NCBI GenBank assembly: GCA_019915015.1
Contig: JAHBBC010000025.1
Span: forward strand, 310,001-374,000
DNA length: 64,000 nt
Direction: 5' to 3'
From: Auriscalpium vulgare
Lineage: Eukaryota > Basidiomycota > Agaricomycetes > Russulales > Auriscalpiaceae
This document shows, in pieces, positions 1,853 through 56,883 of this stretch. Under the pieces are notes generated by a model, which did not search any database, had not been told where the DNA came from, and saw only the letters and a program-made list of their open reading frames with translations. How positions within the stretch are numbered: position 1 is the stretch's first letter; every line of letters begins with the position of its first letter. Both the position numbers and the translations under genes were made by a program.

Positions 1853-1887
1853 ATAGGCATTGAACGAGTCATCAAAATAAGACAACA

Positions 1888-2257: not shown

Positions 2258-2335
2258 CCTTGTAGTTAAGTGGTTACGCATACACATTCCTTATCGTCTT
2301 GTATACAGAAGCTCGGGGTTTGACCCCCGATCTCA
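2258..2335 (+). repeat. tRNA-derived segment, SINE-like (copy at 4322-4399)
   Basis: The plus strand shows tagttaagtggttacgc (A-box-like D arm) and gctcggggtttgacccccga (a T arm with five-base stem; B box ggtttgacccc). The acceptor stem is absent. It lies opposite in orientation to the 1888-1962 segment. Confidence 0.45.
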
Positions 2336-2992: not shown

Positions 2993-3087
2993 AAATGCAT
3001 CTGGCGCAGGCAAATGCATCTGGCGCGGGCAAATGCATCTGGCGCGGGCAAATGCATCTGGCGCGGGCAAATGCATCTGGCGCGGTG
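2993..3087. repeat. ATGCAT-core minisatellite, ctggcgcgggc type (copy at 5057-5151)
   Basis: Five 19-bp units of the form aaatgcatctggcgcgggc. The first unit has caggc in place of cgggc. The flanks on both sides are unrelated GC-rich sequence. Confidence 0.9.
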
Positions 3088-3724
3088 ATAGGTTCAGGCC
3101 GCGGGCAAGCGTGTAGCGAGACGTCGCGAGACGGGGAAGCAGCATGCGAGGCGCAGGGTCGCGGGAGCGGGGGTGATGGGAACGTGGTCCGGCGACCCAG
3201 GAGCAACCGGGACTGGCGACGGAACGGATCACCGGCACGGGCTAGATCGGGAGGGCTTAGCGACGTAGGTAGAGCCACTACTTAGGGAGCTGCGCGAGAC
3301 GTAGCAACCCAATCAACCTGTGGGCGGCGCAAGCCACCCACACCCTTTACCTCACAGAAACTGTAGCCTGAGGCGCTACCAGACTTAGGAAGGAAGGACC
3401 CCACCGATGTGGGAACAGGTAGGCAGGCGGACAGGCAAGAGGGGGTGCGACGGCCCATAGGCGGACGCTTCGCACACGGGTGCGAAGCACTCGGAGGAGG
3501 ATCCCGTAGAGGGCATCCCCAGGCAGGTGAGTGTTTAGTTTGGTGTTTAGGCGGTAGGAGGTGGCCCCGCACGACCGCGGGGAGGGCACGAAGCGCAACA
3601 GCGACACGAACACCTTCCCCCCTCAGCAAGACTAGTCACCCGGACTGGATCGCGACGTATAGGAGGCAGTGTTGGTGGTTGTTGTCCTGTGAGGCACTCG
3701 CCGCACGCCCCGCTAGGGTCCGTT

Positions 3725-29111: not shown

Positions 29112-29304
29112 CTAGAACCACTGGCCATCGTAGGGCTGGACACCAACGGCCTCCGCTGAGGACGATAATCAGTCAATGCCACTTCTAATGGCGAGAACGC
29201 GGGACAAGTGTACCTTCGACAACGCTAGCCGGCGTGACCGCCGCGCTCGCGGTCTGAGCAAGCATGAAGGCAGCGGCGATGAGTGAGCAGATGTAGAAGT
29301 TCAT
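29112..29304 (-). CDS. Mini secreted peptide A (44 aa), RiPP-precursor-like
   Basis: Two exons: 29214-29304 (91 nt, 30 codons plus one base) and 29112-29155 (44 nt), joined over a 58-nt GT..AG intron with a ctgac branch site. The product begins MNFYICSLIAAAFMLAQ, a clear signal peptide ending TASA. The short middle is AVTPASVVE, and the C-terminal exon encodes AEAVGVQPYDGQWF followed by a stop. Peptides B, C and D have the same plan. There is no Lys-Arg processing site and no CaaX box. A UstYa pair lies 8 kb away and a terpenoid cluster ends 0.3 kb away. The function is unknown. A cyclised or otherwise modified C-terminal core is an inference. Confidence 0.68.
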
Positions 29305-29370
29305 GGTGGATGATTGCTGTTGTCGAGTGCGCTGAAGTGCGATGCGATGGGGACCTGTCGTCAACTGGAC

Positions 29371-29390
29371 CGCAGTATTTATTGGGCCAG
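29371..29390 (-). promoter_or_regulatory. TATA-like promoter box of peptide A
   Basis: The sequence cgcagtatttattgggccag lies about 70 bp upstream of the ATG. Peptide B has nearly the same box at 31389-31408. On the coding strand it reads as an AATAAATAC TATA-like box. Confidence 0.45.
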
Positions 29391-29799
29391 TATAGCCAGA
29401 TGCCGCCACGGCACTTCAAGGTGCTACAGCACCAGACGTAGGGTTTTGCGCCGTGCCGCTGGGCGGTGATTTAGCGCCTGGCACCAGCGCGCCGGGGGCA
29501 TCCTGGAGGAATGGACATCAGCATGCAATATCTAACGAAGACATCCCGGGCTCCGAGACAATACCTGTGATGGAAAAAGGGCGAGCCGCTGGTGTACTCG
29601 CTATCATTGAGCTGAGAACAATCGCTGTTGTGTCTCCACGCCGCTGCCCAGGACGTGAGCGGCTTCTTGTTCACTTCACGAGGGTGACATATGATAGAAG
29701 CTGAAGATACGCACATTGTTCAGTAGGTGTGGTTCACGAACCCGTAGTCACGGCTCAAGCGATTTTGTGTGGTAAATATGCCACGATGAGCGCAGAGCA

Positions 29800-30460
29800 A
29801 TTAAGGCAAGCCTAGAGTATCGCAGGAATTTGCTGGGTAGGCTCGAAACATATCGGTCAGATCGGTCCGCAACGAGCTGACTCCTCGGAGACAGAGTCTG
29901 GTCCGCTGTGAAACACCCGGCCGTACACTATACCGGTCTCCAAATCCACGCACAAAAAAAATCCTCTCCCAGCAAAAGGCACGAGCCAAAAGATCCGCGA
30001 GACTCCCAGCAAACCCGAGCTAGGATTGAGCGCAAAGACATCAGCGCCGGGAACAGCATTGGGCACACTAGCGTCTACCTCGAACGCCGGAAACAAGGGC
30101 ACCTTCTCTAGCAGTCTTGGTGTTCCAGTTTCAAAGGAGGTCTGAGGGCCACGAAAGACGCAAGATGATTGGGCCTCGGGCTAGGTGACGCACCGAGATC
30201 ACCAGCCTCACTCGAAGACACTCGGCGTCATCTGTAGCATCATTTCGCTCACCCGAAGTGTGTATGCGCTGGATCGGAGAGCGGCTGAAGACTGCCGACC
30301 CGGACAATATTCATGTTGCAAATTGAGTCAAGGTCGTTATTGTGAGCGCTGTTGCCTGTCTTTTTCAAAACTGATACAAACGAACCATGGTCACAGGAGT
30401 AGCACTCGGTAGTCGAGCGCTGTGGCGCTGGCCTAACCGCACAGGACAAGGCTGCACATT
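29800..30460 (-). repeat. Duplicated block flanking peptide A (partner at 31990-32460)
   Basis: Together with peptide A this stretch forms a block of about 1.3 kb that recurs with peptide B about 2.03-2.09 kb further right. On the minus strand parallel frames exist (PLFPAFEVDASVPNAVPGAD here, PLFPTREPEVLAPAAISALL in the partner), interrupted by stops. This looks like a relic of a duplicated gene whose family I do not recognise. Confidence 0.5.
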
Positions 30461-31133
30461 CCGGAGCATACCCTGAAAGGCCGTCGAGCCACGCTGTGAA
30501 CCCTAGAAGAAGTTAATTGAGCGTATACATGCATATCATAGAGGTCACTGCACAGAAATGTTGTCGGCACGTTCCGGCACGGAGCCTCAGCCGGAGATAG
30601 CCGGACTCACGTGAGAGCTCTGGGTATTGACTCGACTTCAGACTCGGAGCTCGAGAGCTACTAGTACTCAGCTATCACTTCTCCACTATGTCTGAGTCCC
30701 TCCCGCCCTCTACTTTTCGCCAGCCCTCCTTCACGTCCGGGGAAATGTTGTTTCTTCAGCAGGGAGCCGCATTTGACGAGTCCGAGGGGCTCGCACTTGA
30801 CGTGTACATAGGTATACCGTATACGATAAGCGTTGACATATGTGACCGCGATGCAGTTCTGGAAATCACATATTGCTAGCCCTGCCGGTGGAAATTCGGG
30901 GACGCTTTTGCGGCTGCGTTTTGCAGATGTCATAGCACGACCTCGACATGAAATGCGAAATGTAAACAGAGACTCGTTCTTACAGCATGTGAGCTACATA
31001 ATTATATAAACCAACGAATTCGATAATCGCATGAGAGATACAAAGCTCTGTTGACGGCATCATGAGCGAGAGCCCTCATCGACGAAGTCGAGGACATAAC
31101 TTACCAGGAGCTGGGTGTGTATAGCGTCTTGAT
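30461..31133. other. Spacer with a short open frame, no gene recognised
   Basis: The 63-residue plus frame at 30688-30879 (MSESLPPSTFRQPSF...) is unrecognised. 31010-31075 holds repeated sequence of the form tcgataatcgcatgagagatacaa..ctctgttgacggcat, which matches two imperfect copies at about 28950-29045 in the 3' region of peptide A. Confidence 0.35.
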
Positions 31134-31331
31134 TTACGCCTTGAACCACAAGTCGGGGGAGGGATCGACCGCAATGGCCTCCACTGAAGATTAACGTGAG
31201 CCAATGCCATCGGCTCTGCCGAGAGCACAGCCAAGCGTACCTTCGTCCGTGCGGGCCGGAGTGACCGCCGCGCTCGCGGTTTGAATGAGCAAGAAGACGG
31301 CGGCGAGGAACGAGGGCGTATAGAAGTTCAT
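31134..31331 (-). CDS. Mini secreted peptide B (46 aa), RiPP-precursor-like
   Basis: Two exons: 31241-31331 (91 nt) and 31134-31183 (50 nt), with a 57-nt intron in the same phase-1 position as in peptide A. The signal peptide starts MNFYTPSFLAAVFLLIQ and ends TASA, followed by AVTPARTDE and then VEAIAVDPSPDLWFKA and a stop. The first exon is highly similar to A, while the last residues differ (QWF in A, WFKA here), the pattern expected if only the C-terminal core diversifies. Upstream and downstream flanks are also duplicated from A. It has no dibasic site. The direction of change (A to B or B to A) is not visible. Confidence 0.68.
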
Positions 31332-31388
31332 GGTGGTGGCAGATGCTGTCGAGTGTGTGCGACGTGATGGAGAGCTCGTCGGCTGAAC

Positions 31389-31408
31389 CGCGGTATTTAT
31401 TGTGCCAG
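31389..31408 (-). promoter_or_regulatory. TATA-like promoter box of peptide B
   Basis: cgcggtatttattgtgccag, about 60 bp upstream of the ATG, is nearly identical to the peptide A box at 29371-29390. Confidence 0.45.
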
Positions 31409-31989
31409 CCCAGCCCGATGCCGTAACGCGCCCTTCGTGGGGTTTTTAATTTTATCTCCAGAGCCGCATACCATGTGAGTGGGCGGTGATCAATACTCAG
31501 CACTAGTGCGACCGGAAAATACACTGGAGGAATGGACATCAGTATGCAATATCCAAAGAAGAAGACTCAGGCTTCGCGCTCATCGTGATGGAGAAGCGCG
31601 CACCGATTTGTATCTCGCCATCATGGAGCTGAGAATTATCGCCACTTCAATATCATGACTCGGGCTCCGAACCGCTGCGCAAGACGTTCTGTTCTTCTTG
31701 TTCACTTCATCAGCGTGACATATTCGATAACACGCATGAAGAAGTCGCGCTTGTGATGCCCTTCAAACAAAGCATGGGAGTATAAATCCAACGCAAGAGA
31801 CTAGAATAGGACATACAATGACGAATAATTGTATGTCACGGCAGCTGATGAAAGTCGCAGAATTGCAAACCGCGGTCTAGTTTCCTCGAAAGATAAAATG
31901 AGCCGGCAGCTGTTAAGCTGACTCGAGCCCCAGGCGGTCTACCAATGATTATGAGCGTCCGGCGTCATACGATGCGCAGTGAGAAAAAA

Positions 31990-32460
31990 GGACGCAACTC
32001 ACATAGCTCCGGTCATCAACGCCTCGCATCCATGCGCATCCGCGCGTGAAAGAACATCCTCTCCCCGCGAAAGGCGCCTAAGGTGATGTTCAAGAGCTTT
32101 CCTAATAACCAAGTTAGGATTGAGCCAGAACGCAATAGCGCCGAGATCGCGGCGGGCGCAAGGACCTCCGGTTCGCGCGTGGGGAACAAGGGCATGGGCA
32201 TGTGGATCCATGTCAAAAGGGATCCGTACGCCACGACAGATGGCGCCTCGGGCGGGGTGGCGCATCGAGATCCACAAATTGTTCGGACTACCATTGAAAC
32301 TCGCAGCATCATCTGTGTAAGTTACTCCGCACATCTGGAGTATGTTGCGTGTGCGTGATCGGAGGCAGGTGCGCCAAACCCTTATAGACGGCGTCCGATT
32401 ACGTCCACGAGTGGGTTGAAACAAACGGCGGTTGTTTTGAGTACATATCCTTGTCATCAG
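31990..32460 (-). repeat. Duplicated block flanking peptide B (partner at 29800-30460)
   Basis: This is the counterpart of the block beside peptide A. The minus strand keeps longer open frames here (31999-32457, with DDAASFNGSPNNLWISMRHP matching DDAECL...ISVRHL in the partner). It may be the better preserved copy of an unknown gene. I cannot name a family. Confidence 0.45.
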
Positions 32461-33386
32461 TTAGTTCCGAAAGGCATATGGCCATCAAGGTGCGACGAAC
32501 CGTGGCGAGAGGCCGATAAGTCCTGCTCAGAGCGTCGTGGCTCTGGCGTTGGCGACATCGGCGCAGCGTACTTTTATCTCGACGGCCCTGCTTTTCCCAT
32601 ACACCCAGATTTCCCCGCAGGGAGCTCAGAAAGATACTGCGATGTAGTTATGCAAGACCTCGCTCGTGTGCCACTGGCAGTCTTCGTTTCGTGTGACGGA
32701 GGCGTAAGTCTCGAGCCAAACATCAACCGAACACGCACCGGAACCTGAAGTTAATCATCGTGATATCCCTTGTTCACAACCCCAAATCCGTGTCTTTGGC
32801 AGCCATAGATCTTGAAGGTCGTCGTGATGCCGCTGCGAGTCACCGTTGGGAGAAAGCCGCAGCGGGCCGACGAGTACGCGCGTAACGCCGGGGATACTCC
32901 GACTAGATTGTGTGACGCGTGAGCGTTAGCCGTGACTGTGACACCACGTTTTCCTCCCATCGTTCATCTTTCGAAGAGCAACACTTGAGCAGTACGCTGC
33001 TTATCTGACCGGGTACAGTATCAAATTTTGACTCTAAATTTATGTGACGCACATGCGGCGAAAAAGACTGGACGCGAAAATCTTTTCGCCCGGAATGCTT
33101 CCGAGGTGACTTGGCCATGGGGAGAATCAGGCCTGGCAAGCCGGAATGTAGTCTCCGTTGCCGACCTTGCGCGGAAGGAATGGTCACTTATTGGTTTTAA
33201 ATTTATGTCACTCATGCTGAATTTGTAGGTACTAGCAGCCTTGAATTACGATCGCAGAACAATGCTCGTCACATGCATCAGGAACAAACGACTCGGAAAC
33301 TAGCTCTCTGGATGTGGCACCCTGCGTACTATAGCCGCTGAATTCAGTGCTAGCAAATATCCCCATCTGTAAGGCACTCACGTCTC
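32461..33386. other. No gene recognised
   Basis: Only short overlapping frames. The GC content falls compared with the cluster genes. Nothing repeated or structured stood out. Confidence 0.35.
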
Positions 33387-33687
33387 ATATGATGCTTCAC
33401 ATTTTGAACCAGTGGTTGGCTGCCACCGCGTTCACAGGGCTGAGCGTGTCGGCTGCAATTATACTGTTATGGTGCTGCGCTCGCAATATAAGGTCGGCAT
33501 ACCTTCAAGCTCGTTGGCGGGAATCACCGTCGCGATGGAAGCTTGGGCCATCACTAACAGCAGGAGGGTCAAAGAAGTCGTGGACGACAACTTCATGTTG
33601 GGTGCGAATGCGGAGAAGAAGTTGGGCGCGAAATGGCATCGTGACGCGAACGTCTACCCTATCTATGTACTTCACGCCGTGTTGTAG
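33387..33687 (+). CDS. Possible small membrane protein, unknown
   Basis: ATG at 33387 or 33390 gives MMLHILNQWLAATAFTGLSV followed by SAAIILLWCCARNI, one transmembrane helix. A candidate intron (gtcggc..aacag, 58 nt) joins it to SRRVKEVVDDNFMLGANAEK and ends at HAVL stop (33687), about 80 residues in all. It could be the start of a lost P450 or other membrane enzyme. The exon junction is only a proposal, and no family is recognised. Confidence 0.3.
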
Positions 33688-33948
33688 TGAAACGATCGTA
33701 ACAAGATGGGCTGGTGTGGCGCCTCAGACCTGACATGATGGCGCGGATTGACATGTCGAATGCCGGCGCCTCGACGCTCTCCTCACTCCCATGTAGCTTT
33801 ACAATTTCTCTATTATTGTCCACTTTCCCTCGTCAATAGCCATCCACATCGCCTCAGTGTGGCCCAACAATGCATCCTGTCAATTGCATCATCAACCATC
33901 AGCAAGGTGTCCGACTTCCACAAAGGAGCGCATCGTACCCTCCCAGTG

Positions 33949-34142
33949 CTAGAACCACTGATTGGGTGCCGCCGCAGCGTCGACTGCCAGGGCATCGACT
34001 GCGATGCATCTATCAGATCGCGTTCTGGCAAGATAGATACGATGCGCTGACCTTCAACGGTATTCGTGGGAACGATGGCTGCTGCGGTCGCATGTGCGAG
34101 GGCGGCGAGAGCGAGGGCGACGGGTGCGAGGTAAAATCTCAT
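33949..34142 (-). CDS. Mini secreted peptide C (46 aa), RiPP-precursor-like
   Basis: Two exons: 34052-34142 (91 nt) and 33949-33998 (50 nt), with a 53-nt intron in the same phase and codon position as A and B. The signal peptide is MRFYLAPVALALAALAHATA. It continues AAIVPTNTVE and the second exon encodes VDALAVDAAAAPNQWF and a stop. The QWF ending is shared with peptide A, but the sequence is more diverged, so this is an older paralogue. The acceptor chosen (gcatcgcag) keeps the exon length of 50 nt seen in B. An alternative acceptor (gatag) would give a different, longer tail. Confidence 0.62.
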
Positions 34143-35215
34143 GTTGATGTCCAGCGAGGTGAGCAGCGACTTCGTCTCCTGTGGCCATATTCTGAGTCGA
34201 GTCTAGTATTTGACTGCGGAGCGTAGGGCTATGTATAGCACGGCGTCAACGTGCGGTGGGGAGGTGTCAGAGACCGATTATCCTTCACCGCGTACGGGTT
34301 CCGCGGGCCAGGTTCTCTCTGAATCAGAAGATCGCGAATGGCAAGCTGTCAGATATGCTTTTGAGCGGCGCGTGCATTGTCACTAGTGTACAACAGCGAG
34401 AATTCACCTGCGTGCGGACTTTGGACTGGGCTTGCGTCCCTTATCTTCGAATTAAAGCGGCGGAGAGCGTACCTAATCCGTGGGGTATTCATGTTGGTGG
34501 TCGGCCCTGTCCACAGAGCACGCAAAAAGCACGGCGCTTGGTGTCCTCTGACCATGCGGAGAGTTGGACCTGGGGGGAGCGGACAAGGTTTGACAGGTCT
34601 GGTTGCAGGGACCTGTGCTCGTGTGCAGTGCAGTGTATAAATTCTAACTTCCTGGCACGCCGTGAGTACATATCGAGGAATTGTCAACCGAGTACTGCTC
34701 ACATCAAGGAAGCCAACATCATCTGACCTTCGGGAGCTATACCGTATTATATACCCACGCATGCATATAAGCGAGCGAGAGAAATGACCAGGTCAATTCC
34801 AGAGACATCGACATCTGCGAAATCATACTGCGGAACAACGGAGCAGCGCGACGCCGCCACGATGGTATCACGTCAAGCCTCAGGCCCAGGACCGCCGCCG
34901 ACCTCACAGGCACGGCGATTGACGACGGGCACAATTCAAGATGCGAGGGGCAGTGGTAAGTACTGCCCCCGCCGGCTTGTCTGATGGAATCAATTAGCGA
35001 TAACGAAAAGCAGAGATTTCCCGTGCGAGGGGCTCGACAGATAGAAGATCTGTCAGACGTTGATGAAGCTGGACCCCGTGAGTAGGATCTCGCCGAGTCA
35101 CTAGTCACCACGCCCGCCAATACGTTTTCATCATCATTTCATTCGGCGGCCGTGGACCAACTGTTGAGTCCACCGGCGTAGGGACTGCGCGGCAGCGTAC
35201 AGATACACAGGCGCA
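34143..35215. other. Promoter side of peptide C and unassigned sequence
   Basis: A TATA-like stretch (gtatttgactgcgg) lies near 34206, about 65 bp upstream of the peptide C start. Beyond that, open frames at 34256-34762 and 34737-35120 overlap on both strands and carry no motif I recognise. Confidence 0.35.
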
Positions 35216-36273
35216 TCATGCCGAGGGCGGCTTGCGAATGAACATGTTCCCTGTGAACACGCCCCACGGCGTAGGCTCGTCCATGCGCCCTACCTCCGTG
35301 AACCCACGATTGCGGTAGAATACAGCCTAGGCACAGAAAAGCTCCGCATCAGCATCATCGCGCAAGTGCACACGACTTGTCGTGGAACATACGTTCTCCT
35401 CATTCTGCGTGCCAAGCACAACGTTCTTATTGTCGGCTGCGGCCTGCAGGGGTCATTTTGAGGAGCTGGTGTTTGCACAGCAAACACGAGAACGTACGAT
35501 CTGGCAAGCGGTCTTCAGGATCTCAGACGCGAGCCCGCGGCCCTGGTAATTCGGGTGTGTCGCAATGAGGTTGGCATACCACGCATCGCGCTCGGTCTGC
35601 GATCCAGCCATCAGTGAATGGTTTACGCTAAGAGACAGGTAACGCACGTTCTCGCCGAGGACGCGCAGCTTGAACTCACGGGTCTTGCGTGAGTACTGCG
35701 CGAGCTCGAGTCAATTCGAGGTCCTCTCCTCTAGAAGCAACCGGAAACTGACATCGTTCAAGAACCAATCGCGATGCGCTGGTGGCATCGCGTTGATGAA
35801 GTCAAGGAACCCGAGCTCGCGCTGTTCTGGGCTGTTGACCATCATTCAATAGTCAGCACAGGGAAAACCAACACCTCCAGTACTTACGTCGAGAACACCG
35901 TTTGACCAGGTGGAAACCAAATTCCAATGGACTGGATTTCGTCAGAGCCGTCAGAGGACGCCACAAAGACGACACCACTGTGATTGCCAGCCCGCACGAG
36001 CGCGCGCCAGGCGGGGTCTGCGAGGGCGGGGTCACCGCCAGTGAGAATATTGTTGGCGATGTCTAATTCGTGGGAAGAGCTCAATCACAATGGCGAGCGG
36101 GAGTTGAACGGCCACATACCACCGTCGTATGCCTTCAGGCACAGTGCGACAGCCTCGTCGACTTGGGCATCTGCAGAGACCGGCGCGTCTGAGCAACGTA
36201 ACTGGCATTGAGCAGAGATACACTTTCCTGTGAGTCGTTCAACCCAAACCCGACGGACGATACCGGCAGACAT
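35216..36273 (-). CDS. GNAT-family N-acetyltransferase
   Basis: ATG at 36273 reads MSAGIVRRVWVERLTGK, and after introns ANNILTGGDPALADPAWRAL, SDEIQSIGIWFPPGQTVFST, QRELGFLDFINAMPPAHRDW and RYLSLSVNHSLMAGS. The acetyl-CoA-binding motif A is HPNYQGRGLASEILKTAC (Q-x-x-G-x-G/A type). The C-terminal exon is AVFYRNRGFTEVGRMDEPTP, then GVFTGNMFIRKPPSA and a stop. The Tyr of AVFYRNRGF sits where GNAT enzymes keep their general acid. About 230 residues, cytosolic. It lies between peptide C and the UstYa pair, so it could modify a peptide or metabolite from the cluster, or be a bystander. Confidence 0.72.
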
Positions 36274-36991
36274 GGCGATGGGGTCGAACAGCGCTCTGGC
36301 AGTTTCTTCTGAGATAAAAGGGAGCGCGAGAAGCCGAAGCCTACGTAGCCGGCTGGCTACTTATGATTCCAAAAGCGAGCGCTTTCGCGTGTACTTCTGC
36401 CTCTTCTGATGTGGGGATATGAGGGATACATTTGCAGTGAAGGGATTCAATCTTGGATGGTGGTTCAATGGGAATTGACTCCGTCACAGTGTGACAGACC
36501 AACTGCGCGGCCGTTTCCGTTGATGATTCACACGCTCTGCCACGTCGTCCGCCTTCGACCGTCGCTCGACTCGCCTCGACACCGACGTCGACTGCGTCCT
36601 CCTCACCTCTCGCGAGTCAACGAAGGCTTGGAAAACTTGTCTAACCCTCTTCGACCTCTCATCTATCCCCACTGAAGAATATGCAAGAAATTCTGATCGC
36701 CAACTCTGCGCGCGGGCGGACGTTTTGGGACTGCTGTCGGTCTGGCCGCTCCCTCAGGCTGCCTTGTGACAATTTCCTCTCAACATCAAGCTCCGGATTG
36801 CCTTCTTGCAGATGTATTTGATTGATGAGAAGGCGCAGGACCACAAGGACAGTGTTGCCCGGATTAACAGCGCCCATCCATCCGCGCCGTTCTCATCAGT
36901 CACTAGTCACACGAGGTCTGACTAAACGCTCGCAGCTTCGTATAGAATCGCCGTACGTGAAGACCACTCTCCATCTCCTGGAGCGCAGCGC
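36274..36991. other. No recognised gene
   Basis: A plus-strand stretch near 36535-36670 (STRLDTDVDCVLLTSRESTK) looks partly protein-like but is broken by stops. The last 100 bases are the likely promoter of the UstYa-type gene. Confidence 0.35.
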
Positions 36992-37639
36992 ATGATGCAG
37001 TCGAAGCCGATGAACCAGCGGCGCACACTCCTTCTCATCGCGCTTATCATCTTGAAATCACTCAGCATCTGGTGGATGCGACGGAGGCTGTATCCAGCTC
37101 ACACCGAGGCGGATTTGGACTGTACGTTGCCCTTCGTATTCCGGTATGTATGCGTACTGACGCTGTTGATTGCAGTTGCCCTCGGCGACGACACGCCGCG
37201 AAGATGGGACATCGGGGAGCTGGATAGCGTCATCATGCCCTCCGAAGAGACTATCCACTACGAGGTCTACGGATCGACATCCAACGCTGAATGGCACTCG
37301 CTGTTCCCTGACCACGGCACTCTTCACCTGGGCCCCCAGCGTCGCCCATACAGCATCGCCATGTTTCACCAGCTCCGGTGTCTCGGCATCTACCGCCACG
37401 AGCTCGTGCGCACGCACTCGCCAAACGCAACGTACATCGCCAAAGGGGAGGAGCTCACGCGGCACTGCCTCAATTACTTGCGCCAGATGGCGCTGTGCAG
37501 GCTGGACACCACGCTGCTCCCACTTGTGGGACATCCCAAGCCGCATCCGGCGCCATACATGCACGTGTGCAAGGACTGGGAAAAGGTCTATGCGGAGGTG
37601 GAGAAGAACCAGAGAGAGTATGCGCGGTCCCTGTCATAG
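36992..37639 (+). CDS. UstYa-type (DUF3328) oxidase-like protein 1
   Basis: 197 residues from two exons (intron 37122-37175). MMQSKPMNQRRTLLLIALII leads into one transmembrane helix, as is usual for UstYa proteins. Next come SNAEWHSLFPDHGTLHLGP, the first motif MFHQLRCLG and the second motif RHCLNYLRQMALC. The family's HxxHC appears here as HQLRC, so one His is replaced by Arg, while the second HC motif is intact. UstYa-family proteins install macrocycles or other oxidative changes in fungal ribosomal peptides (ustiloxin, asperipin, phomopsin) and also act in cyclochlorotine formation. It is convergent with the second UstYa gene, only 113 bp away. The altered motif could mean a non-catalytic partner. 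Confidence 0.83.
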   Translation: MMQSKPMNQRRTLLLIALIILKSLSIWWMRRRLYPAHTEADLDCTLPFVFRYVCVLTLLIAVALGDDTPRRWDIGELDSVIMPSEETIHYEVYGSTSNAEWHSLFPDHGTLHLGPQRRPYSIAMFHQLRCLGIYRHELVRTHSPNATYIAKGEELTRHCLNYLRQMALCRLDTTLLPLVGHPKPHPAPYMHVCKDWEKVYAEVEKNQREYARSLS

Positions 37640-37752
37640 AAAGGGTACGTTTTGAGGCTGCTAGTCTCCGCCGCTACTCACGTCCACTCAGTTTAGTTCG
37701 CTCTTTACGCTGTCTTGGCTATCTCTAGGCACTCAATGACAAAACCTGCTAT

Positions 37753-38590
37753 TTACGATGCTGCATGTTCGCGTGCCTCAGCCTCAGCTATCAAGTCAAC
37801 CACTGTCCGGCGTGACCGCATCAGTTTTCTGACAGAAGAACAACAGATAGGACTCACAAGATATGCCATTGGCCTTCGCGTACACCCACCAGTCGATCCA
37901 ACTCCGGGTCGCGTCGTCGTACACCGCCTCCCAGTTGCCGCACTCGTGCGCGACGCCCACACGCTCCACCGTGTAATTCCTCTGCGTAAAGTCGCCCGGC
38001 TCGAGCGTCACGTCCGCCTGGCACAAAATCGCATTGCGCAGCAGGCTGAGACAGTGCTGGATGTGCTTGTAGTCGGGCTGTGCGGGGCTCGCGTACTCAC
38101 CGCGCATGTAGCGCAGGCAGTGGATCTCGTGGTACATCGCGATGCCGAACGCGCGCTGGTGAGGCCCATAGCGCAGTGTGCCGGCGCCGGGCGGGAGGTA
38201 GTGCTGCCACTCGTTGGCGGCCTCGGGGTCGGTGAGCGCGTAGTGGACGCTCTCCTCCTCGAGGAGCTGAACGCGCTGCGAGTGCGCGGGCTTCCGAGGC
38301 AGGTGCGAGGGGAAGTCGTCCCCTTCCATCGCTGCGACGGAGGTGAGTGCTGTATTTGGACTGCAGGGGCATATGTACTCACAGTACGCAGGGAGCGGTT
38401 TCTGCGGGCGCAGCGCGGCGGTGTCGAGGCTGCCGATGAATGCGATGAGGTGCGCCGTCCAGACGACGGACACGATGCTTGCTACGACGAGCAGGAGCAT
38501 CGTGCCTGCCCCCGTCCGCTGCGATGCCATCTGCGTATGCATGCTGGGATCAATACGCCTTGCGGGCGCCTCTGCGTCGACTTCCGTCAA
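37753..38590 (-). CDS. UstYa-type (DUF3328) oxidase-like protein 2
   Basis: 243 residues from three exons (introns 38332-38382 and 37803-37857). The cytosolic N-terminus is followed by a TM helix (MLLLVVASIVSVVWTAHLIA). Then come AANEWQHYLPPGAGTLRYGP, the canonical first motif AMYHEIHCLRYM (HxxHC) and the second motif IQHCLSLLRNAILC. The last part is HECGNWEAVYDDATRSWIDW and, after the last intron, LVDLIAEAEAREHAAS and a stop. Both copper-type motifs are complete, so this is the likelier catalytic member of the pair. The tail-to-tail arrangement with UstYa 1 and the four mini peptides around it point to peptide modification. Confidence 0.85.
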
Positions 38591-38935
38591 ATACTTCCAC
38601 GAGGGCGAAGTGATCTCCGGCGCGCATTCCTCGCCCGGCGGCAGATCCCCCTCCGCTCTGCCGGCGCCTTCCCAGGCCTGCCAGGACCATCAAATACCGC
38701 GGGTTCCACGATCCGCTCTTCGGAGTCTCATGGTGCTGCACCGCGTGATGGGCCCCAGGCAGACATATTGACGTGCATTATCTCCCCCGCATCGTCCTCG
38801 AAAAAGGGCGAGTGCCTCGCGACGACAGGCGCGCGGGTACGGCGGCGGGTTGCGAGATAAGGCTTCTGCGGGTGATGATATATGGGCTGTCCTTCGCGCA
38901 GCTGAAGACTAGCAGCTCAGCGCCGCCCCGCAGTC

Positions 38936-40242
38936 ATGTCGAGCGTCGTCGCCCCGAACACCGCCCCCATCGACGTCTCCTTTGAACGCTCCATCTACAT
39001 CGGGAACTTCTTCCGCGGGATCCTCTATGGTAGGTCGCAGCCACCTGGGACCAGCTACATTACTGATAGGCTACGCACGCAGGGATCGAGATGTTCACAT
39101 TCTTCGCGGCGGTGTATTGCCTCTGGGGGCGCTCAAGCCGCGAGACGCGTGGACGCAAGTTCTACGTCGTGTACGGCGGTGTCTTGCTCTCGCTCGTCAC
39201 CATCGCGGTGACGACAGACGCCCTCGCAGGCCAGCGCATGTGGATCGACCACCGGAACTTCGTGGGCGGGCCGGGCGGGCCGCTGGGGTACTTCGGCTCG
39301 ACGTCGGCCTCGTGGGTCAATGTGTTCGGCTCGTCGGCGGACGCGGTCGCGAACATCATGGGCGACGGTCTTCTGGTTTGTCTCCTCGCTGCATCGCATG
39401 CGCTGCGTACTAATGGGAGTGTTGTAGGTGTACCGCGCCTACATGATATGGAACTCGCAGTTGTGGGTCGTGGCGTTCCCCATCCTCATGTACATCGGCT
39501 CCTCCGGTAAGCCCCAGCGCACTTCATCCATTCGCGGCCGACCTCATACGTTTCCGTGCAGTGATGGTCATCCTGACCGTCGTGCAGAGCGCGCTGCCGA
39601 ACGCGTTCCTCTTCGACGGGCACACTGCGCAGCTCGGTGTGCCCTGGGTCTCGCTCTCCGTGAGCGTCAACATCGTCGTCACCACGCTCATCTGCGGGCG
39701 CCTGCTGTACATGCGCCGCGCGATGCACGCCGCGCGCGCGCCGGAGCTCGCGGAGATGTACACGAGCATCATCGCGATCCTCATCGAGTCCGCGATGCCG
39801 TTCAGCGTGATTGGCATCGGCCTCATCGTGACATACGCAAAGAACGACGAGTTCGACATCGCGTTCGCGTTCGTGTGGGGCATGTTCTGCGTGCGTCCTT
39901 CCGTCCATCTTCCTGTCTTCCTGCCCTGATTGTCTGCGTTCTCTTGCTTCTTCCGCGTTCGTCGCAATGCCTATTCAGTCGCTATCACCGCAGATGATCA
40001 TCCTGCGAGTTGCCATGGGCCGTGGCTGGACTAGGGATACAGGGGCGCAGTTCTCTGAGTCCCTTGTCTTCGCAACAAGACCCGCGCCCGTTGGCGCCGA
40101 AAAGTCTGGGAGCAGCTCAGATGACACAGACGTCGACGAGCGGCGGCGGACAAACGTACTTGGCGCGTCTGCGTTCTCGACGGACCGCTCAGTGTCCTTC
40201 CTGGGTAAAAAGGCTACCGACTCTGGTGATATGAATGTCTAG
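38936..40242 (+). CDS. Seven-TM-like membrane protein (Agaricomycete family)
   Basis: ATG at 38936 starts MSSVVAPNTAPIDVSFERSI. Exons then give FRGILYG, IEMFTFFAAVYCLWGRSS, VVYGGVLLSLVTIAVTT, MWIDHRNFVGGPGGPLGYF, NIMGDGLLVYRAYMIWNS, VMVILTVVQSALPNAFLFDG, VVTTLICGRLLYMRRAMH and VIGIGLIVTYAKNDEFDIAF, then a Ser/Asp-rich tail ending at 40242. The helix pattern, the D-GLL-YR-Y-IW motif and the polar C-terminus match a widespread basidiomycete membrane family of unknown role. Four introns. It has no demonstrated link to the peptide cluster but could be a transporter-like or receptor-like accessory. Confidence 0.75.
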
Positions 40243-40591
40243 GTGCAGATGGTGGAGATTGTCGGCGCCGGGCGTGGCCACGGGGTTGATGTGTTTGGGC
40301 TGTGTACTTACTTATCCACGTGTAGTTGCTCTATATGTCCTGCTTGGGAGAATTGAATGGCTTGGGTGGTCGTCACATGTGGTTGAAGAAGCAGATTGGT
40401 TGGGAGTAGTGGCCGTTGAAGACAGGTTGCACGAGGAACACGGAAGACTCCGACTCGAAGACGAACAGCGCAGCCCCATGATTCGTAGGCACCATCGCCC
40501 AGCTTCGATCTCAGGTCCAAGAAGGCACGAAGGAACGTCTAACTCGTATGCACCACAGAGGTATTATTACATGCGACATTCTGGCCAACCA
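40243..40591. other. Short convergent spacer
   Basis: This is the 3' ends of two converging genes. No additional gene is seen. Confidence 0.4.
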
Positions 40592-41626
40592 TCATATCGT
40601 CTGGTGCTGCAGCATGTATATCTCTGTACATCACCCAAGTGAGAACGCGCTCATCATGGACAAAAAATAGAGTAGACACGCACCAAGCTCATCATCGTCC
40701 GCACCAGACATGACAAAATCGACATCGCAGTCAGAGCCCGCGGCGCACGCCATCTCGAACGTGTGATACGATCCCGAGGGGCAGTCGAATGGCGGCAGTA
40801 CGGTCTTGCCCCCAAGATGGCGTTCCGCGAGGGAGGCCGATGCGTGCCGTGTGACGGAGCCAACCAACTCTGCTCGCCGGGGGCGCGAGGAATACGTCAG
40901 CGACCGCATGTCGAGCCGCGCCGGGGCATCGAGCCGCCAGACGTCGAGCGTGAGTGCGGGCGGCGCAGGCGGGAAGTCCACGACGAGCGTGCAGTTCTCC
41001 ATCCCATAGTCGATTACGCGGAACTGCACCACCGTCGACACCTATCCCCAACGCACATCAGGCCCTATTACCTCCTATGCGGAGACGGAGCTCACCTGCG
41101 GTGTTACCGAGATCCACATCCCCGCGGGCGGGACGTTCCCGTTGACGTTCGTCAGGTACTCGCGGTCGTCGCGCAGCACCTCGCGCGGCTTCGCCATCGA
41201 CACCCACCCTATCGCGCGCGCGCGGTTCGGAATCGGTGCGTAGCGCGTCGTCGGGCGCGTCCCGTTGCCGTAGATCTTGTCGAAGTTGATGTAGGGGCTC
41301 TTGACCTTGAGCGCGGGCAGGCGTGCGGTGGCGAACTCTGGGCGGGAGAGGACCACGCCGAGGTAGAGGACGGCGAGCGCGTCGAGCAGCGTGCAGGCGA
41401 TGAGGAGCGCTGTGGGCCAGTGCGCGATGAAGCCGAGGCGTTTGTGGGATGTAGGCGGCACTGGTGGTCGGGACGTATGCGGGTCAGTGGGGCAGGGAGG
41501 GCAGGGAGGGCGGGTAAGCGTACAGTTTAGGGCATCGCGCTCCTCGTCTAGGCTTTCTCTTTTGTCGGAGTCATCCTGGGGGAGAGTGGAATATTGCGAT
41601 GTGTAGGGTACACGAGGGAGAGACAT
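40592..41626 (-). CDS. Single-pass membrane protein with extracytoplasmic domain, unknown function
   Basis: ATG at 41626: MSLPRVPYTSQYSTLPQDDS, then a Pro/Thr-rich segment. One TM helix follows (WPTALLIACTLLDALAVLYL), then NFDKIYGNGTRP, AIGWVSMAKPREVL, YGMENCTLVVDFPPAPP, FDCPSGSYHTFEMACAAGS and DVDFVMSGADDDEL. The last exon EIYMLQHQTI stop ends at 40592 after an intron that starts gtgcgtg. About 300 residues. I recognise the layout as a common Agaricomycete type II membrane protein, with Cys pairs in the C-terminal beta-rich domain that may form disulphides. No enzymatic motif is visible. Confidence 0.65.
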
Positions 41627-43103
41627 TGGGAAAGAGGGACTTCTGGGGGACGACGAAGATGCGTCGCAAGGCCTTCGAGAGTCAAGCTTCGAGATTCAGG
41701 CTTCAAGCTGTGCTCCAGGCTCAGGCTCAAGTGGATGTCCAGTGAGTCATCTGACGCCGTGAGACCACCACGAAGCCGTCGACAGATACATCATAACATC
41801 AGATGTTTGAGCGCCGAAAGCAGCCTCCATCCCGCCCGAGTGAGGATGACCGCGTATCTCGGCAGAAGACTGCCAAAAATGAGTGCGCGCGAGCCCAGAA
41901 TGCGAAGGATTATTGTGCTGGAAAGCCGGCTTCAGTGGACCAGAAGGATGCGGTCGGTGCGCACGGGCATACGGGCGGTGATCTAGGATCATCAGCGAGG
42001 GTATCCGTCGCAGAAATGGAACCAGTATTGCGCGCGCTCTATGCGCGCATGAGCGGAATGGGGTAGATGTCGTCCCGAGCTGTCTCCATTTCCCATGTGC
42101 GCGCAGCGTACTCCGTGCGGGCGGATGATTGCTTTGCCGAGTATCCCAGCCATGCAGGAAGGGAACTTGATGGGGACAAGAGAGAAGCAGATGGCCGCAT
42201 GGGAAAAATCACGGAGCTATATGTAGGACCATAGGCATATGCTACTACAGATATGAATAGTGAGTTCTTGATATCCACTGACAAAGGAAACGAACGTACT
42301 CGTTGGAGCTTGCTCTATGGCGCTTTCAGGTCTCTAGACTAAGATTCTGCAGACCCACGATGCCAGCGGGGCCGCTGGCGATACAGGCTGGATGCCACAG
42401 AGGAACATCTGCTGCAGTCTGGATTTTCTGATGAGCATCCTGACAGACTGGAACTGTGGTTGGCAGATGCGATACCTGGTCGTTCTCGTTCCGTTCGTGT
42501 CGGCGAAGACTTGAAAGGACTGAAAAAGCCTGCGCCACGATGCGTCACACACGTAGCCTTGTGACTTTCTTTCGTCACAATGGTGACGGTCACCTCGCCG
42601 GGGGTCGGCCGAGTCACCGCGACCACGACTCTCTTTCTCAACTCTTTCTTCTCGACGAACTTTACTTAGCAAACCTCGGACTAGTACGCGATCTGTGTAG
42701 TGATCCCTGGAGGCTACAGACTGTGACGCTGCTTCTACACATCTGACACTATGCTCCTTCTCCCGTTCATCCCGCAGGCAGTGAAGCCTACTCAGGGCCG
42801 CCTGCTGTCCTTCTAAGGCGAGAAAGCGCGCATTCGCCGCCATCTGTACCTGGAAGCGTGGCTTCTCAGTGGTAAATAGTCCCTGGGGAGCTAAAATTCG
42901 CAGGTGTTGGAGAGGACAGTCCCAGGCCTCGTGAACAGCGCGCAACAGCGCAACTCCCCGCGTTCGAGGTCGACTTGATGCTGATCCTGGCGAAGACGTC
43001 TATCGGAATCTGACCTCCTTAAGTGTGCCTTGTGATACGGCGAATTGAGGGCTCTGGTGGCATATAAGCAATCACACTCAAGCTAGAGCTACACCAGCAA
43101 ATC
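41627..43103. other. Unassigned region with an open frame at 42334-42945
   Basis: The minus frame (203 residues) holds MAANARFLALEGQQAALSRL and charged sequence, and an overlapping minus frame reads VVVAVTRPTPGEVTVTIVT. Neither has a motif I know, so they may be pieces of one spliced gene or chance. The bases before 43104 (gcatataagcaatcacac) contain a TATA-like box for peptide D. Confidence 0.35.
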
Positions 43104-43292
43104 ATGCAGCTCTTTGCGCCCTTCGTACTCTCTCTCGTCGTCTTCATACAACTCGCGCATGCCGGCGTGCTCCCACCTCGCGATATAATAGGTATGTTTA
43201 TTCATCCCCATGCTCGAAAAGGTGATCTGAGGCTACGCCCCCTTACAGACGAAGCTCTACGCGCCGAAACCGACCCTCCGTTCAAAGCTTAA
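43104..43292 (+). CDS. Mini secreted peptide D (43 aa), RiPP-precursor-like
   Basis: Two exons: 43104-43191 (88 nt, 29 codons plus one base) and 43249-43292 (44 nt), with a 57-nt intron in the same phase as A-C. The signal peptide is MQLFAPFVLSLVVFIQLAHA, then GVLPPRDII and the second exon DEALRAETDPPFKA and a stop. The FKA ending recalls peptide B (WFKA). It is on the opposite strand and on the far side of the UstYa pair. It is the most diverged member, but exon sizes, intron phase and total length agree closely, which supports common origin. A broken relative lies at 55757. Confidence 0.62.
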   Translation: MQLFAPFVLSLVVFIQLAHAGVLPPRDIIGMFIHPHARKGDLRLRPLTDEALRAETDPPFKA

Positions 43293-44057: not shown

Positions 44058-45093
44058 TCATCGACCTGTAGGCCCGGGGTTACCGTCGTCGTCAACATCT
44101 AGGTGTTTCATCAGCACGGCAAACCCAGACATATAACGGAAGCCAAACGTACTAAGGCTGGCATCAGCGGCCATGACTAGGAGCCTCATCACCTCGGCTA
44201 GAGACGCTATGTTTGGTGACGCTAAACGCGCAGCCCTCTCGTTGCCGAACACGTGTTCTGACACGGCCGTAGCAAAAGGCGTGGTGCGGAGCAGGGTGAA
44301 GTCGGCAAGCGACTCGGGCAGCGCTTGGATGGTGGCGGCGTCGAAGATAACAGCGCGCCCGTCGGTGCTGACACGGAAGTTTGCATGTCGGACTGGGTTA
44401 GGACGACTTCCTCGCCCTCGAAAGAGACATCGGCGATTGTGCGCCGCCGGATCCGGACAATATTGACAACCTGCGGGTTGGAAGGAGTCAGCCGCGTGGA
44501 ACGATATGCGCGCGACAAATGAACGATGGAAGAGAAAGGCGCACCGTGTTGAAGTACCGCTGAGCCGCGGCGACGCTTCTGAACTTGCGGGGCGCCTCCC
44601 CGTACTTGAAGACGGTGTGGCGGGCATATGATGCGCCGAGAGAGCCGAATAATTCCATGTGGGGTGTGCGCTGTGCGCGCAGCCACAGGACCGCCTCGGC
44701 GGCCTTGGCGAAGAGCTCGTCGTCCGGGACCGTACACAGCTCGATGCGCTTCATGACGATGTACCCCAAGCTATATGGGCGATAGAAGTACTGGACTACC
44801 TGGGGCACGTGCGGGGCTGCGTCCCCATCTTTGCAGGCGAGGGCGTATAGGAGCTTGAGCGCTACGCTTTCGGCCTCCAAGGTTACGTGGTCGGTGTATT
44901 TGACTACTAGGTGGTGGTACGAGGCATCGGAGTCGTCATAGTCGCCGAGAGGAAAGACGCGGCTATAGACACCGTCGGGGCGGTAGCTCTTGTCTTCGTG
45001 GAGCTCGGCGGCTCGTACGACGGCGCGCTGGAACACGGATTCAGGGTCCATGGGCATAGAAGGCGATATGGCGGGGAAGTCGGATTGGTCCAT
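44058..45093 (-). pseudogene. APH-like kinase-fold protein with catalytic-loop frameshift
   Basis: The start at 45093 gives MDQSDFPAISPSMPMDPESV, and the gene follows the intact 51535 copy closely: VTLEAESVALKLLYAL, YIVMKRIELCTVPDDEL and RSVAAAQRYFNT, then an intron to VVNIVRIRRR and VSFEGEEVVLTQSDM. There the intact copy has ATG GACGCGAGC AAC, and this one has ATG CA AAC. Seven bases are lost at about 44384, which throws the frame just at the APH-like loop SDM-DASNF. The 3' part continues in another frame (NFRVSTDGRAVIFDAAT to the end at 44058). A recent pseudogene, otherwise complete. Confidence 0.78.
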
Positions 45094-50150: not shown

Positions 50151-50515
50151 TCGATTGGATCCTACCAAAGTCACGTCGTCGGAATGAAACATTTTCATAG
50201 AGGTCTATTTATAAACGTAAATCAAGTCAACGATGCCTGCTCAGAGTCCTCGCCACCGGCCACCTGTCCATCCGGGTAAATTGGTTGCACCGAACTCTCA
50301 ACGCTCCGAATGATGTGCGGACCAAGTGTCGCGTGGACTCCACGTGTTAGGTTACAGCCGGTGACGAGGTTCTCTGGTTGTGTCAGAAGAAAAAGGGATG
50401 AATTGCATATACAGTATGAGTTCCCCGGGCCCTGTCGCCTCCGTATCGCACGCATACTAGGAGATTCAGGCGCGGCGCCGACGTTGAGGACTAGGGTTAC
50501 CGTCCTCATCGAGTT
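50151..50515. other. Spacer, no gene
   Basis: Shares short stretches with the spacers downstream of other F-box copies (ttctctggttgtgtcagaag here, ctctctggtcgtgtcagaag near 52130). Confidence 0.4.
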
Positions 50516-51535
50516 CTAGGAGTGTTTCATCAGCACGGCAAACCCAGACATATAATGGAAGAAGGTTGAGCTGAACGTACCAAGGGTGGCATCGGCGATC
50601 ATAAACAGGACCCTCCTCACCTCGGCTAGAGACGCTATGTTGGCCGACGCTAAACGCCGCGCAGCCCTTTCTTCGCCGAACACGTGTTTGGACACGGCCG
50701 TGGCAAAGGGCGTGGTGCGGAGCAGGGTGAAGTCGGCGAGCGACTCGGGCAGTGCCTGGATGGTGGCGGCGTCGAAGATAACAGCGCGCCCGTCGGAGCT
50801 GACACCGAAGTTGCTCGCGTCCATGTCGGACTGGGTGAGGACCACTTCCTCGCCCTCGAAAGAGACATCGGAGATCTGAGGCAACCAACGCCGCCGGATA
50901 TCGACCGCCTGCAGGTTGGGAGGAGTCAGCCGCGTGGAAATGCGATGTGCGCGCGAGGACAAAAACGATGGAAGAGAAAGGCGCACCGCGTTGAAGTACC
51001 GCTGAGCCGCGGCGACGCCTCTGAACTTGAGGGGCGCCTCGTCGGAATTGAACACGGTGTGGTAGGCGTATGACGCACCCAGGGATCCGAATACTTCCAT
51101 GTGGGGCGGGCGCTGTGAGCGCAGCCACAGGACCGCATCGGCGGCCTTTGCGTAGAGCTCGTCGTCCGGGACCGTGTACAGCTCGATGCGCTTCATGACG
51201 ATATACCCCCAGTCCGTTGGGTCATAGAAGTAGAGGACTACCTGGGGAACATGCGGGGCGGCGTCTCCGTCTTTGCAGGCGAGGGCGTATAGGATCTTGA
51301 GCGCCACACTCTCGGCCTCCAAGGTAACGTGGTCGGTGTACTTGATTACTAGCTGGCGGTACGAGGCATCGGAGTTGTCGTAGTCGCCGAGATGAAATAC
51401 ACGGCTATATTTACCGTTGCCACGGATGCTTTCCTTTTCGTGGAGGGCGGCGGCTCGTACGACGGCGCGCTGGAACGCGGATTCGGGGTCCATGGGTATG
51501 GAAGGGGATATGGTGAGGAAGTCTGATTGATCCAT
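50516..51535 (-). CDS. APH-like kinase-fold protein, best preserved copy
   Basis: ATG at 51535 gives MDQSDFLTISPSIPMDPESA, and a continuous frame of 339 residues follows. Segments: VTLEAESVALKILYALACK, VPQVVLYFYDPTDWGYIVMK (adenine-pocket and hinge-like), ELYTVPDDELYAKAADAVL, then VSFEGEEVVLTQSDMDASNF with the Asp and Asn spacing of the APH/choline-kinase catalytic loop. A short RAVIFDAATIQALPESLADF comes where the metal-binding region would be, with no clear DWE. A 78-nt stop-free stretch (50909-50986) with GT..AG borders is probably an intron, since the paralogue needs it. The protein would then be about 313 residues. The substrate is unknown, and the family may be degenerate. Four copies are in the window. 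Confidence 0.68.
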   Translation of the reverse strand: MDQSDFLTISPSIPMDPESAFQRAVVRAAALHEKESIRGNGKYSRVFHLGDYDNSDASYRQLVIKYTDHVTLEAESVALKILYALACKDGDAAPHVPQVVLYFYDPTDWGYIVMKRIELYTVPDDELYAKAADAVLWLRSQRPPHMEVFGSLGASYAYHTVFNSDEAPLKFRGVAAAQRYFNAVRLSLPSFLSSRAHRISTRLTPPNLQAVDIRRRWLPQISDVSFEGEEVVLTQSDMDASNFGVSSDGRAVIFDAATIQALPESLADFTLLRTTPFATAVSKHVFGEERAARRLASANIASLAEVRRVLFMIADATLGTFSSTFFHYMSGFAVLMKHS

Positions 51536-54906: not shown

Positions 54907-56883
54907 AGGAAGGCGGAAGAATGCTCTATTTATCAAGACACATAAATTGTTTTATATTGAACGTCATGAACTCTCCACGAGCCGGGCTACATCCAACACC
55001 TTTTTTGTCTTCCATCGTCTACACTCGATCCCTTTGACTGAGTTTCTATCCCGTGGGCCCTACATCGGTCCCGTGCTCGACTGGGCTTTCGGCGCGCTCA
55101 CAGCCATCGCGGACGACGTCACGGTTCATCGCGCCAGTCACCAGCGGTACCTCGTCGCCCACCAAGTACTTCATGCTCCACATCCTCCGTTTTCACGCTC
55201 TAGCTCCGACACATACCCCAGCGCGCCCAGCCGCCGCAACCTCTTCCGGTCTTTCCCAACTGCCAACTTCTCTCGGTCTTCAGATTCCGTTCTTCGGTGT
55301 CCGTTCATCCCCACGATTGCCACCATCCTTGATTGCCCCCGGTTGACGTCGGCGCGGCACACAATATTGGGGACATCAAAGTCGACAGACTGAGTTGCCC
55401 GGAGCGCGCGGCAAATGCCGGACCGCCTTCTTCACTACCCTCACCATCGACCATTCAATATCTCATCTTCACACGTCTTCGGCAAAACAGATGGCATCCT
55501 AGGAAGGCCTGTGCTCCCCAAAGACGTATTGCGGCCCGCAAATTGCAGAACAGCTTGAAGACTAGTACTGTCAGCTTCCATCCGCACGCTTCATACAACC
55601 CACCTTCCCCCACCCAGCCGTTGAGCCCGAGTCCACGCAAATGACGGGCAGAGCATTCCGAAGGCCAGCGGCGAGTCGTACTCCCAGCCTGCTACGTCCA
55701 GAAGGCACGCGTACTACAGAGCGACCGCCGACTTGGCACGTCTTTTTCTTCTATTCATGCATCTTCTTGCGCCTTCCGTTTTCGCTCTCGTCGTATTCAT
55801 ACTCGCGTTCTTCTTAAACTCTTGCGAGAAATAGTCAGGTACTGGCTAGCCACCGAGCTCTTCGTGGGCAGACCAGAAGCTGCCGCCCGCTGCGCTGCAC
55901 TGCTCCGGCATGTCAGCTGATATCCATCGAGCACGCCTTAAAATACGACTCTTTGCTGTACAGCGCTTCATTGTGTATCGATGCACATGTGGCCGCTTCG
56001 CGTTGTGGCAACATATGTCATGTCTTCTGACGCTGGCCCTTGGCCTTCTTCACCATGAATTCGCCGATTCCCTACACGCCCGCGCCACTTGCACCAGAAT
56101 CACTCCATTTGAATCAGCGCAGAAGACATAGTTCACACAGATTTGGCGCGTGATGATAGGAGCACATTCGCCCTCTGGGATAGAGGGTTTACAGCAAACC
56201 ATCATTCCAGTTATTGCCCGAGCGTGCGGTCGGACCCTATCATGGGGAAGGAGATAACGGCAGGACGCTCGTCACGGCGGCATCGACGCAATGCGGGATT
56301 CCTCGTGCCGCAGCATCAATAGCCCCAGTGATGCTGGGCCCGCGCAGTGCGCGCGGCCCGTGTACCGTGCGGGGTCAGTAGTCCTAACTGGTCGATAGGG
56401 CATGTACCGCCGGTGGTCGGGCAGCGTGAGCGCATCAGCAAAACCACATGCCGGCCCTCTGCGGTAATCGTTGCACTGCGGCTTTGGAGTGGTTATTCTG
56501 AGGTAATGTTCTTCGGCGCTGGACAAGGGGTTTGCGATAGATCTTCTCGTCAATAAAAGCCTCTTGCTCGGCAATAAATTCTTATCATAACAAACATATT
56601 TACGATGAGAAATTGAGACGGCGACACCTGCCATGCCGCCGGAGAGGTCTTCACGCAGCTTGGCTAACTACGGAAATATATGACTGTCGGCCGAATGTCA
56701 GGCTGCGCTAACAGTGTCGTTCTCCTTCCGGTCGTTGAAATCTAAGACTGCAAAACTCAGCGAGAGCATGACAACACGTCGGCAACAACGCACTGATATC
56801 CTTGTTTGTATCACCGTCATTGTATGTCGTCGTATCGATTCTGATTGCGAAGTTGTTCGCTTGAGACCGCTATAAAACACATT
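54907..56883. other. Unassigned region, contains a peptide-D relic
   Basis: At 55050-55380 both forward frames are Pro/Ser/Arg-rich (LDWAFGALTAIADDVTVHRA in one) and unrecognised. 55757-55834 is a broken copy of the mini-peptide gene. 55860-56880 shows only short frames. I see no gene I can support. Confidence 0.35.
55757..55834 (+). pseudogene. Relic of a mini secreted peptide gene (D-like)
   Basis: ATG at 55757 reads MHLLAPSVFALVVFILAF and stops at 55834 (SCEK stop). The DNA is close to peptide D over its first 50 bases: atgca.ct.ttgcgcc, then ctctcgtcgt.ttcata. Similarity fades at the signal-peptide end, and a frame change leads to the stop. No second exon could be matched. Confidence 0.5.

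Follow-up and report, generated by a model that had tools for sequence, protein, structure and literature searches.

Mushroom-forming fungi hold many UstYa-family (DUF3328) genes without clear substrates, and the locus described here raises the question of whether a row of very small genes encodes substrates of this kind. The DNA analysed, called the window below, is a stretch of 64,000 bases of contig JAHBBC010000025.1 (positions 310,001 to 374,000), and unprefixed coordinates are counted from its first base. It contains four tandem genes, g1, g2, g2b and g3 (29.1-34.1 kb), each with two exons and each encoding a secreted peptide of 44-49 residues with a Trp-Phe (WF) dipeptide at or near the C-terminus, and two UstYa-family genes, U1 and U2. 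The arrangement suggests, but is no proof, that a peptide-making system known from fungi exists here in a form with one peptide per gene. The reading we tentatively prefer, while giving it somewhat less than an even chance, is that the four genes are single-core precursors modified by the U1/U2 pair.

Tandem genes for small secreted peptides

29112..29304, minus strand: peptide gene g1, 44 residues, signal peptide, phase-1 intron of 58 nt, C-terminus GQWF
31134..31331, minus strand: peptide gene g2, 46 residues, C-terminus LWFKA
33397..33596, minus strand: peptide gene g2b, 49 residues, C-terminus HWFKM
33949..34142, minus strand: peptide gene g3, 46 residues, C-terminus NQWF
43104..43292, plus strand: candidate peptide gene g4, 43 residues, C-terminus PPFKA

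The original prediction had described two-exon genes of 43-46 codons at 29112, 31134, 33949 and 43104, ending QWF, WFKA, QWF and FKA. The DNA does encode them (44, 46, 46 and 43 codons), with the slightly longer ends listed above. As a family, three of these four hold; the kinship of the gene at 43104 is doubtful, and the true fourth member, g2b, had been overlooked. All five genes (g1, g2, g2b, g3 and g4) have a phase-1 GT-AG intron of 50-58 nt after the signal-peptide/pro region, signal peptides being called by a home-made hydropathy rule. WF forms the very C-terminus in g1 and g3 and is followed by two residues in g2 and g2b. None of the five peptides contains a KR, RR, KK or RK dibasic site; exon 2 is one short exon without repeated cores, and no cysteine follows the signal peptide in the WF peptides. 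Judged by eye, the aligned peptides seem to keep the pro region and the WF end and to vary in the residues before WF.

The genes g1, g2, g2b and g3 are homologous: in shuffle tests on residues 20 to the end, all six pairs gave p 0.0002-0.007. Under the shuffle test the four pairs of g4 with the others gave p 0.04-0.35, and it was rejected as a proven member of the family; its peptide lacks Trp and ends PPFKA. It has the same plan as the WF genes, and its kinship with them appears doubtful. A stop-interrupted copy of g4 exon 1, 81% identical over 48 bases, was found at 55755-55802. The genes g1 and g2 arose by a tandem duplication that reaches into the upstream region (67% across 608 aligned bases), with dN (nonsynonymous divergence) of 0.233 and dS (synonymous divergence) of 0.533 in exon 1. 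Identity between them amounts to 69/91 positions in exon 1, 41/54 in the intron and 136/180 aligned positions within 200 upstream bases; since the intron and the upstream DNA are conserved as well as exon 1 is, this pair alone does not demonstrate coding constraint.

Search for further members of the WF family

A pattern describing the end of exon 1 matched 32 sites in the 51.6-Mb genome, versus 53 for the reversed control, and among the 30 of these 32 matches examined with their loci the gene structure was present only in the four window genes. This pattern, built on the four genes, revealed no fifth copy of the family in the genome. A scan for the WF gene structure over 68 loci also gave unrelated-looking matches in L020 and L054. 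When the genome was searched at the protein level with g2 exon 1, g2 and g1 were found and g2b and g3 were missed, so diverged WF members elsewhere could escape detection; the g4 exon matched only itself and missed its degraded copy at 55755. In a protein-database search with the five peptides, none of 85 candidates reached E<=10, although U1/U2 homologs from annotated mushroom genomes are in that set. Such short genes often go unpredicted in annotations, and the absence of peptide homologs is therefore weak evidence. The peptides had no NCBIfam match at E<=0.01 and a single, meaningless Pfam match (E 0.21).

The WF family was found at one place only, 2.85 kb from the UstYa pair, and UstYa matches lie at about 11 separate places of the genome. 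Since these places are so few in 51.6 Mb, a random single place would fall this near a UstYa gene in about 0.3% of cases, by rough and post hoc arithmetic on a hand-picked case.

The UstYa pair and its two types

36992..37639, plus strand: U1, UstYa-family gene of the altered-motif (RC) type, HQLRC...LTRHC
37753..38590, minus strand: U2, UstYa-family gene of the canonical (HC) type, HEIHC...HIQHC

The two UstYa/DUF3328 genes that the original prediction placed between its third and fourth peptide genes were confirmed by Pfam PF11807, which U1 and U2 match with E values of 3.1e-18 and 3.1e-16 and scores of 66.9 and 60.3 bits, over the curated cut-off of 25. The pair is thus real, but a plain count of two UstYa genes conceals that one is altered in its motifs and the other is canonical. 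The U1 intron (about 37122-37175) was placed by comparison with A. vulgare protein P0001; the outer limits of U2 are those first proposed, its domain lying inside the open frame 37799-38689. For both genes the best match comes from Auriscalpium vulgare, at 88% over 99% of the query for U1 and 98% over 71% for U2, so that the genome is closely related to that species (Russulales).

For UstYa proteins that act on ribosomally synthesized and post-translationally modified peptides (RiPPs), two HxxHC motifs serve as the criterion (PMC12048977). U2 has both, and in U1 neither is intact. Among the matches listed, 81 of 86 U1 homologs have Arg in the first motif where its second His would stand, and the first-place His of the second motif is absent from all 80 Arg-type homologs in which that motif was scored (0/80); both HxxHC motifs are present in 44 of 46 U2 homologs among the matches listed. 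All 37 organism-named U1 homologs come from mushroom-forming fungi, one of the 37 being an HC-type protein. The RC and HC types separate with support 99/96 in a tree of 31 rows (18 chosen matches and 13 proteins of this genome), and on these sequences U1 and U2 belong to two clades. No solved structure matched U1 or the HC-type profile at E<=1, and Foldseek with the RC model found no PDB match at E<=0.001. The AlphaFold model of the RC type has a predicted local distance difference test (pLDDT) score of 81.5; that of the HC type, at 62, is too poor for an active-site comparison.

A search of the genome gave 14 UstYa matches, of which three are of the RC type (U1, C15:167823-168260 and C4:1544278-1544625), one is untyped (C4:1881916) and ten lack the Arg, one of the ten having Asn for the last His of the second motif. 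An RC gene adjoins an HC gene at two of the three RC loci (the window and C15); the RC gene on C4 stands alone. In other species, equal contig sizes were taken to stand for identity of contigs, a measure that does not cover distances between genes. By this measure an RC and an HC protein share a contig twice in A. vulgare (63,383 bases, with P0001 and P0087, and 422,403 bases), once in Lactarius sanguifluus (P0010 and P0106; 102,592 bases) and once in Cerrena zonata (1,052,860 bases), that is, in three of the five species found among the matches listed for both types, the others being Artomyces pyxidatus and Amylostereum chailletii. The L. sanguifluus proteins stand in the tree beside U1 (87/81, with Artomyces) and beside U2 (95/80). 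With the two types on one contig in A. vulgare, L. sanguifluus and C. zonata, the RC/HC pair seems to be an older unit.

Small secreted candidates at other UstYa loci

Flanks of the UstYa matches were scanned for small secreted genes under several rules. The controls were other loci taken from a pattern search, not a random sample, and the UstYa flank pieces overlap in places. A WF family present at all UstYa loci was rejected, as 108,319 bases of flank contained no strict WF-type gene. The neutral scan gave six phase-1 matches in the window (64,000 bases), six in the flanks, of which one is the start of a UstYa gene itself, and seven in 169,650 bases of other loci. Since phases 0 and 2 yielded 10 and 8 matches in the flanks (versus 6 and 7 in other loci), phase 1 is not special there. 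A stricter rule, which misses g2b and g4, gave three matches in the window, two in the flanks and none in other loci; a looser rule gave five in the flanks versus two, and a rule asking for Trp near the end gave eight versus eight.

Two phase-1-intron candidates on C4, about 0.5 and 2 kb from the solo RC gene, share D.AH..WL.R. They lie at L078 166-383 (plus strand) and L080 around 3711 (minus strand) and have AHxxWL[RK]R in common. The former passes the strict, Trp-near-end and neutral rules, the latter only the looser and Trp-near-end rules. Their kinship was scored by shuffle test at p 0.001 (exon 2) and 0.003 (residues 20 to the end), values that are flattering because the candidates came via scans, one of them only via scans asking for an aromatic residue near the end. 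The C4 end pattern is itself not rare, with nine genome matches, two of which are these genes, versus 12 in the control. On C9, a secreted candidate of 58 residues (C9:771380-771604; L001 around 819, minus strand) has a phase-1 intron as well as KR and RR sites, and a gene of the HC type is about 0.7 kb away. A secreted exon 1 on C1 has five matches, all on C1 (712264, 723249, 736576, 785704 and 789488) and all 1.7-3.1 kb from UstYa matches, the fifth only from a weak one (E 0.001); exon 1 and the phase-1 donor are kept in all five copies. In the three copies that were read further, there are stretches downstream that look similar to LFTDHVHEEA, a hint of repeated units the size of an exon.

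At C15 the neutral scan gave no phase-1 match, and the only phase-1 candidates from another scan were two that overlap, at a distance of 6.4 kb. A 68-residue secreted open frame with an RR site (C15:170110-170313, plus strand; single-copy, no Pfam match) lies 0.5 kb from the C15 pair. It was not counted as a mini peptide; its donor site and the downstream open frames resemble a longer multi-exon secreted gene, of which it is probably the first part. The recurrence of small secreted candidates at the C4, C9 and C1 loci is a lead only, and the argument from it is weakened by the phase-0 and phase-2 controls and by the failure of two outside candidates under the strict rule.

Proposed mechanism and rival explanations

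If the four genes encode single-core precursors, the signal peptide would carry each of them into the endoplasmic reticulum, where membrane-anchored U1 and U2 would modify either the conserved Trp-Phe region at the C-terminus or the variable residues immediately preceding this region. Canonical U2 would be the oxidase, and the altered U1 either a partner that it cannot work without or an enzyme tuned in another way; the short C-terminal product would be released by some protease that is not Kex2. The anatomy read from the DNA fits a secreted leader and a C-terminal core on which an oxidase pair would act within the secretory pathway, and UstYa-family proteins are described as acting on secreted ribosomal precursors (PMC7329392, PMC12048977). 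The original prediction of many single-core precursors served by a UstYa pair agrees with this anatomy and with the candidates at C4, C9 and C1.

Several observations weigh against it. The C15 sister pair, with the same RC/HC combination, has no comparable peptide gene in 16.5 kb (about 7 kb on each side), and the scan controls show no specific enrichment of candidates near UstYa genes. One C4 candidate fails both the strict and the neutral rules; the C9 candidate passes no rule but the neutral one and lacks W, F and Y in exon 2; at C1 exon 2 is unsettled, some copies are interrupted, and the family and its UstYa genes are duplicated together. In the window itself, a GNAT-type gene separates the peptide genes from the putative oxidases, and exon 1 of g1 and g2 is no better conserved than the DNA around it.

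The same sequences could be read as linear secreted signalling peptides, the UstYa pair having another substrate, and we regard this as a real, though lesser, possibility. Once the signal peptide is removed, an Ala/Pro-rich pro segment would be shortened step by step, as a Ste13-type dipeptidyl aminopeptidase could do at X-A/X-P, to leave short peptides ending in WF. The EAEA of g1 and the X-A dipeptides after the signal peptide in all four WF genes agree with it, and dipeptides of the X-A/X-P type are described in fungal pheromone-like precursors (PMC7329392). A seven-transmembrane (7TM)-like gene nearby, though without a Pfam match, and the C15 pair without comparable peptides speak for it as well. 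The single location of the family close to a UstYa pair argues the other way, but proximity is no exclusion: among the KEPs (Kex2-processed repeat proteins) homologous to putative basidiomycete pheromones, 17 of 76 are reported with a DUF3328 neighbour (PMC7329392). Small secreted candidates at other UstYa loci likewise tell against signalling, although without enrichment over controls.

Tandem-duplicated antimicrobial or effector-like peptides unrelated to the oxidases seem unlikely. The duplication of g1 and g2 together with upstream sequence, their moderate dN and dS in exon 1 and the birth and decay seen in the interrupted g4 exon copy would suit such genes; the lack of cysteine after the signal peptide and the fixation of WF in all four members would not. 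That the genes are chance open reading frames is very improbable: they are short, and g1 and g2 have no exon-specific conservation, but not one of 60 first-order Markov resamplings gave even a single gene of the WF-ending architecture, versus four in the window, and reading frame, intron position and phase are kept in four diverged copies.

An extension of the single-core reading would be a separate Agaricomycete class of UstYa RiPPs, with a conserved RC/HC heteropair, families of mini precursors with one core per gene, a phase-1 intron between leader and core, and release without Kex2; we consider so broad a class rather doubtful. No description of single-core UstYa substrates in mushrooms or of an RC/HC pair was found in the titles and abstract openings searched, which covered few subscription journals and are not proof of absence.

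Neighbouring genes

22.6-23.2 kb: P450 pieces
23.9-25.3 kb: alcohol-acetyltransferase-like gene
around 26-27 kb: GMC-oxidoreductase pieces (best E 0.00056, below cut-off)
35456..35710, minus strand: GNAT-type acetyltransferase gene piece (Acetyltransf_1, E 5e-06, over cut-off)
38.9-40.2 kb: 7TM-like gene, no Pfam match
40.7-41.0 kb: But2-like piece, below cut-off

Tailoring functions are possible for these genes, but they may equally be chance neighbours. The GNAT-type gene, known here as one piece, sits between the WF genes and U1. The peptide genes had first been described as lying around the UstYa pair; in fact g1-g3 and g2b are all on one side, 2.8-7.9 kb from U1, and only the doubtful g4 is on the other, past the 7TM-like and But2-like genes. 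No tyrosinase or methyltransferase was matched among the 42 window proteins scanned with Pfam, a set that does not comprise every open frame, and Rfam gave no match on the window at gathering scores. At 1775-5150, tandem arrays recur at an offset of 2064 bases (1775/3839, 2993/5057) and open frames repeat likewise, which suggests that a segment of about 2 kb was directly duplicated. The segments 44077-44500 and 50494-50938 are 83% identical over 446 aligned bases; their tested open frames have no Pfam match, and they are probably paralogous genes.

Comparison with known systems

Mini genes with single cores would be missed by the survey in PMC7329392, because it finds precursors by a signal peptide and Kex2-cut repeats. 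In Pleurotus ostreatus 16 UstYa genes are reported, six of them developmentally expressed (PMC8893723). If true, the single-core reading tells where missing UstYa substrates may be sought and defines a two-type oxidase pair with a directly testable division of labour. A single core peptide has been raised as a possibility for lichen UstYa clusters (PMC12048977).

Small secreted precursors are common to the WF system and to KEPs, including basidiomycete ones, of which 103 of 1680 are reported with a DUF3328 gene nearby (PMC7329392); repeats and Kex2 sites, which the survey requires, are both absent from the four WF genes. Ascomycete alpha-pheromone precursors are likewise secreted, with X-A dipeptide stretches and a short product. 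They differ in their KR-separated repeats, of which the WF peptides, despite their X-A dipeptides, have neither the repeats nor the KR sites, and their genes are reported to have no neighbouring DUF3328 genes (PMC7329392).

There is also a likeness to the dikaritins (ustiloxin, phomopsin and asperipin-2a; UstYa/UstYb), in which a secreted ribosomal precursor likewise lies beside two UstYa-family genes and aromatic residues occur in the putative core. The signal peptide of dikaritin precursors is also found here, by the hydropathy rule only. Unlike dikaritins, the window has several single-core genes in place of repeated cores and dibasic sites, and one of its UstYa genes is of the RC type. Because Kex2 sites and repeats are absent, the WF peptides are not dikaritin precursors as defined; judged from its genes, the WF system may be a candidate that works like a dikaritin system and is not filed as one.

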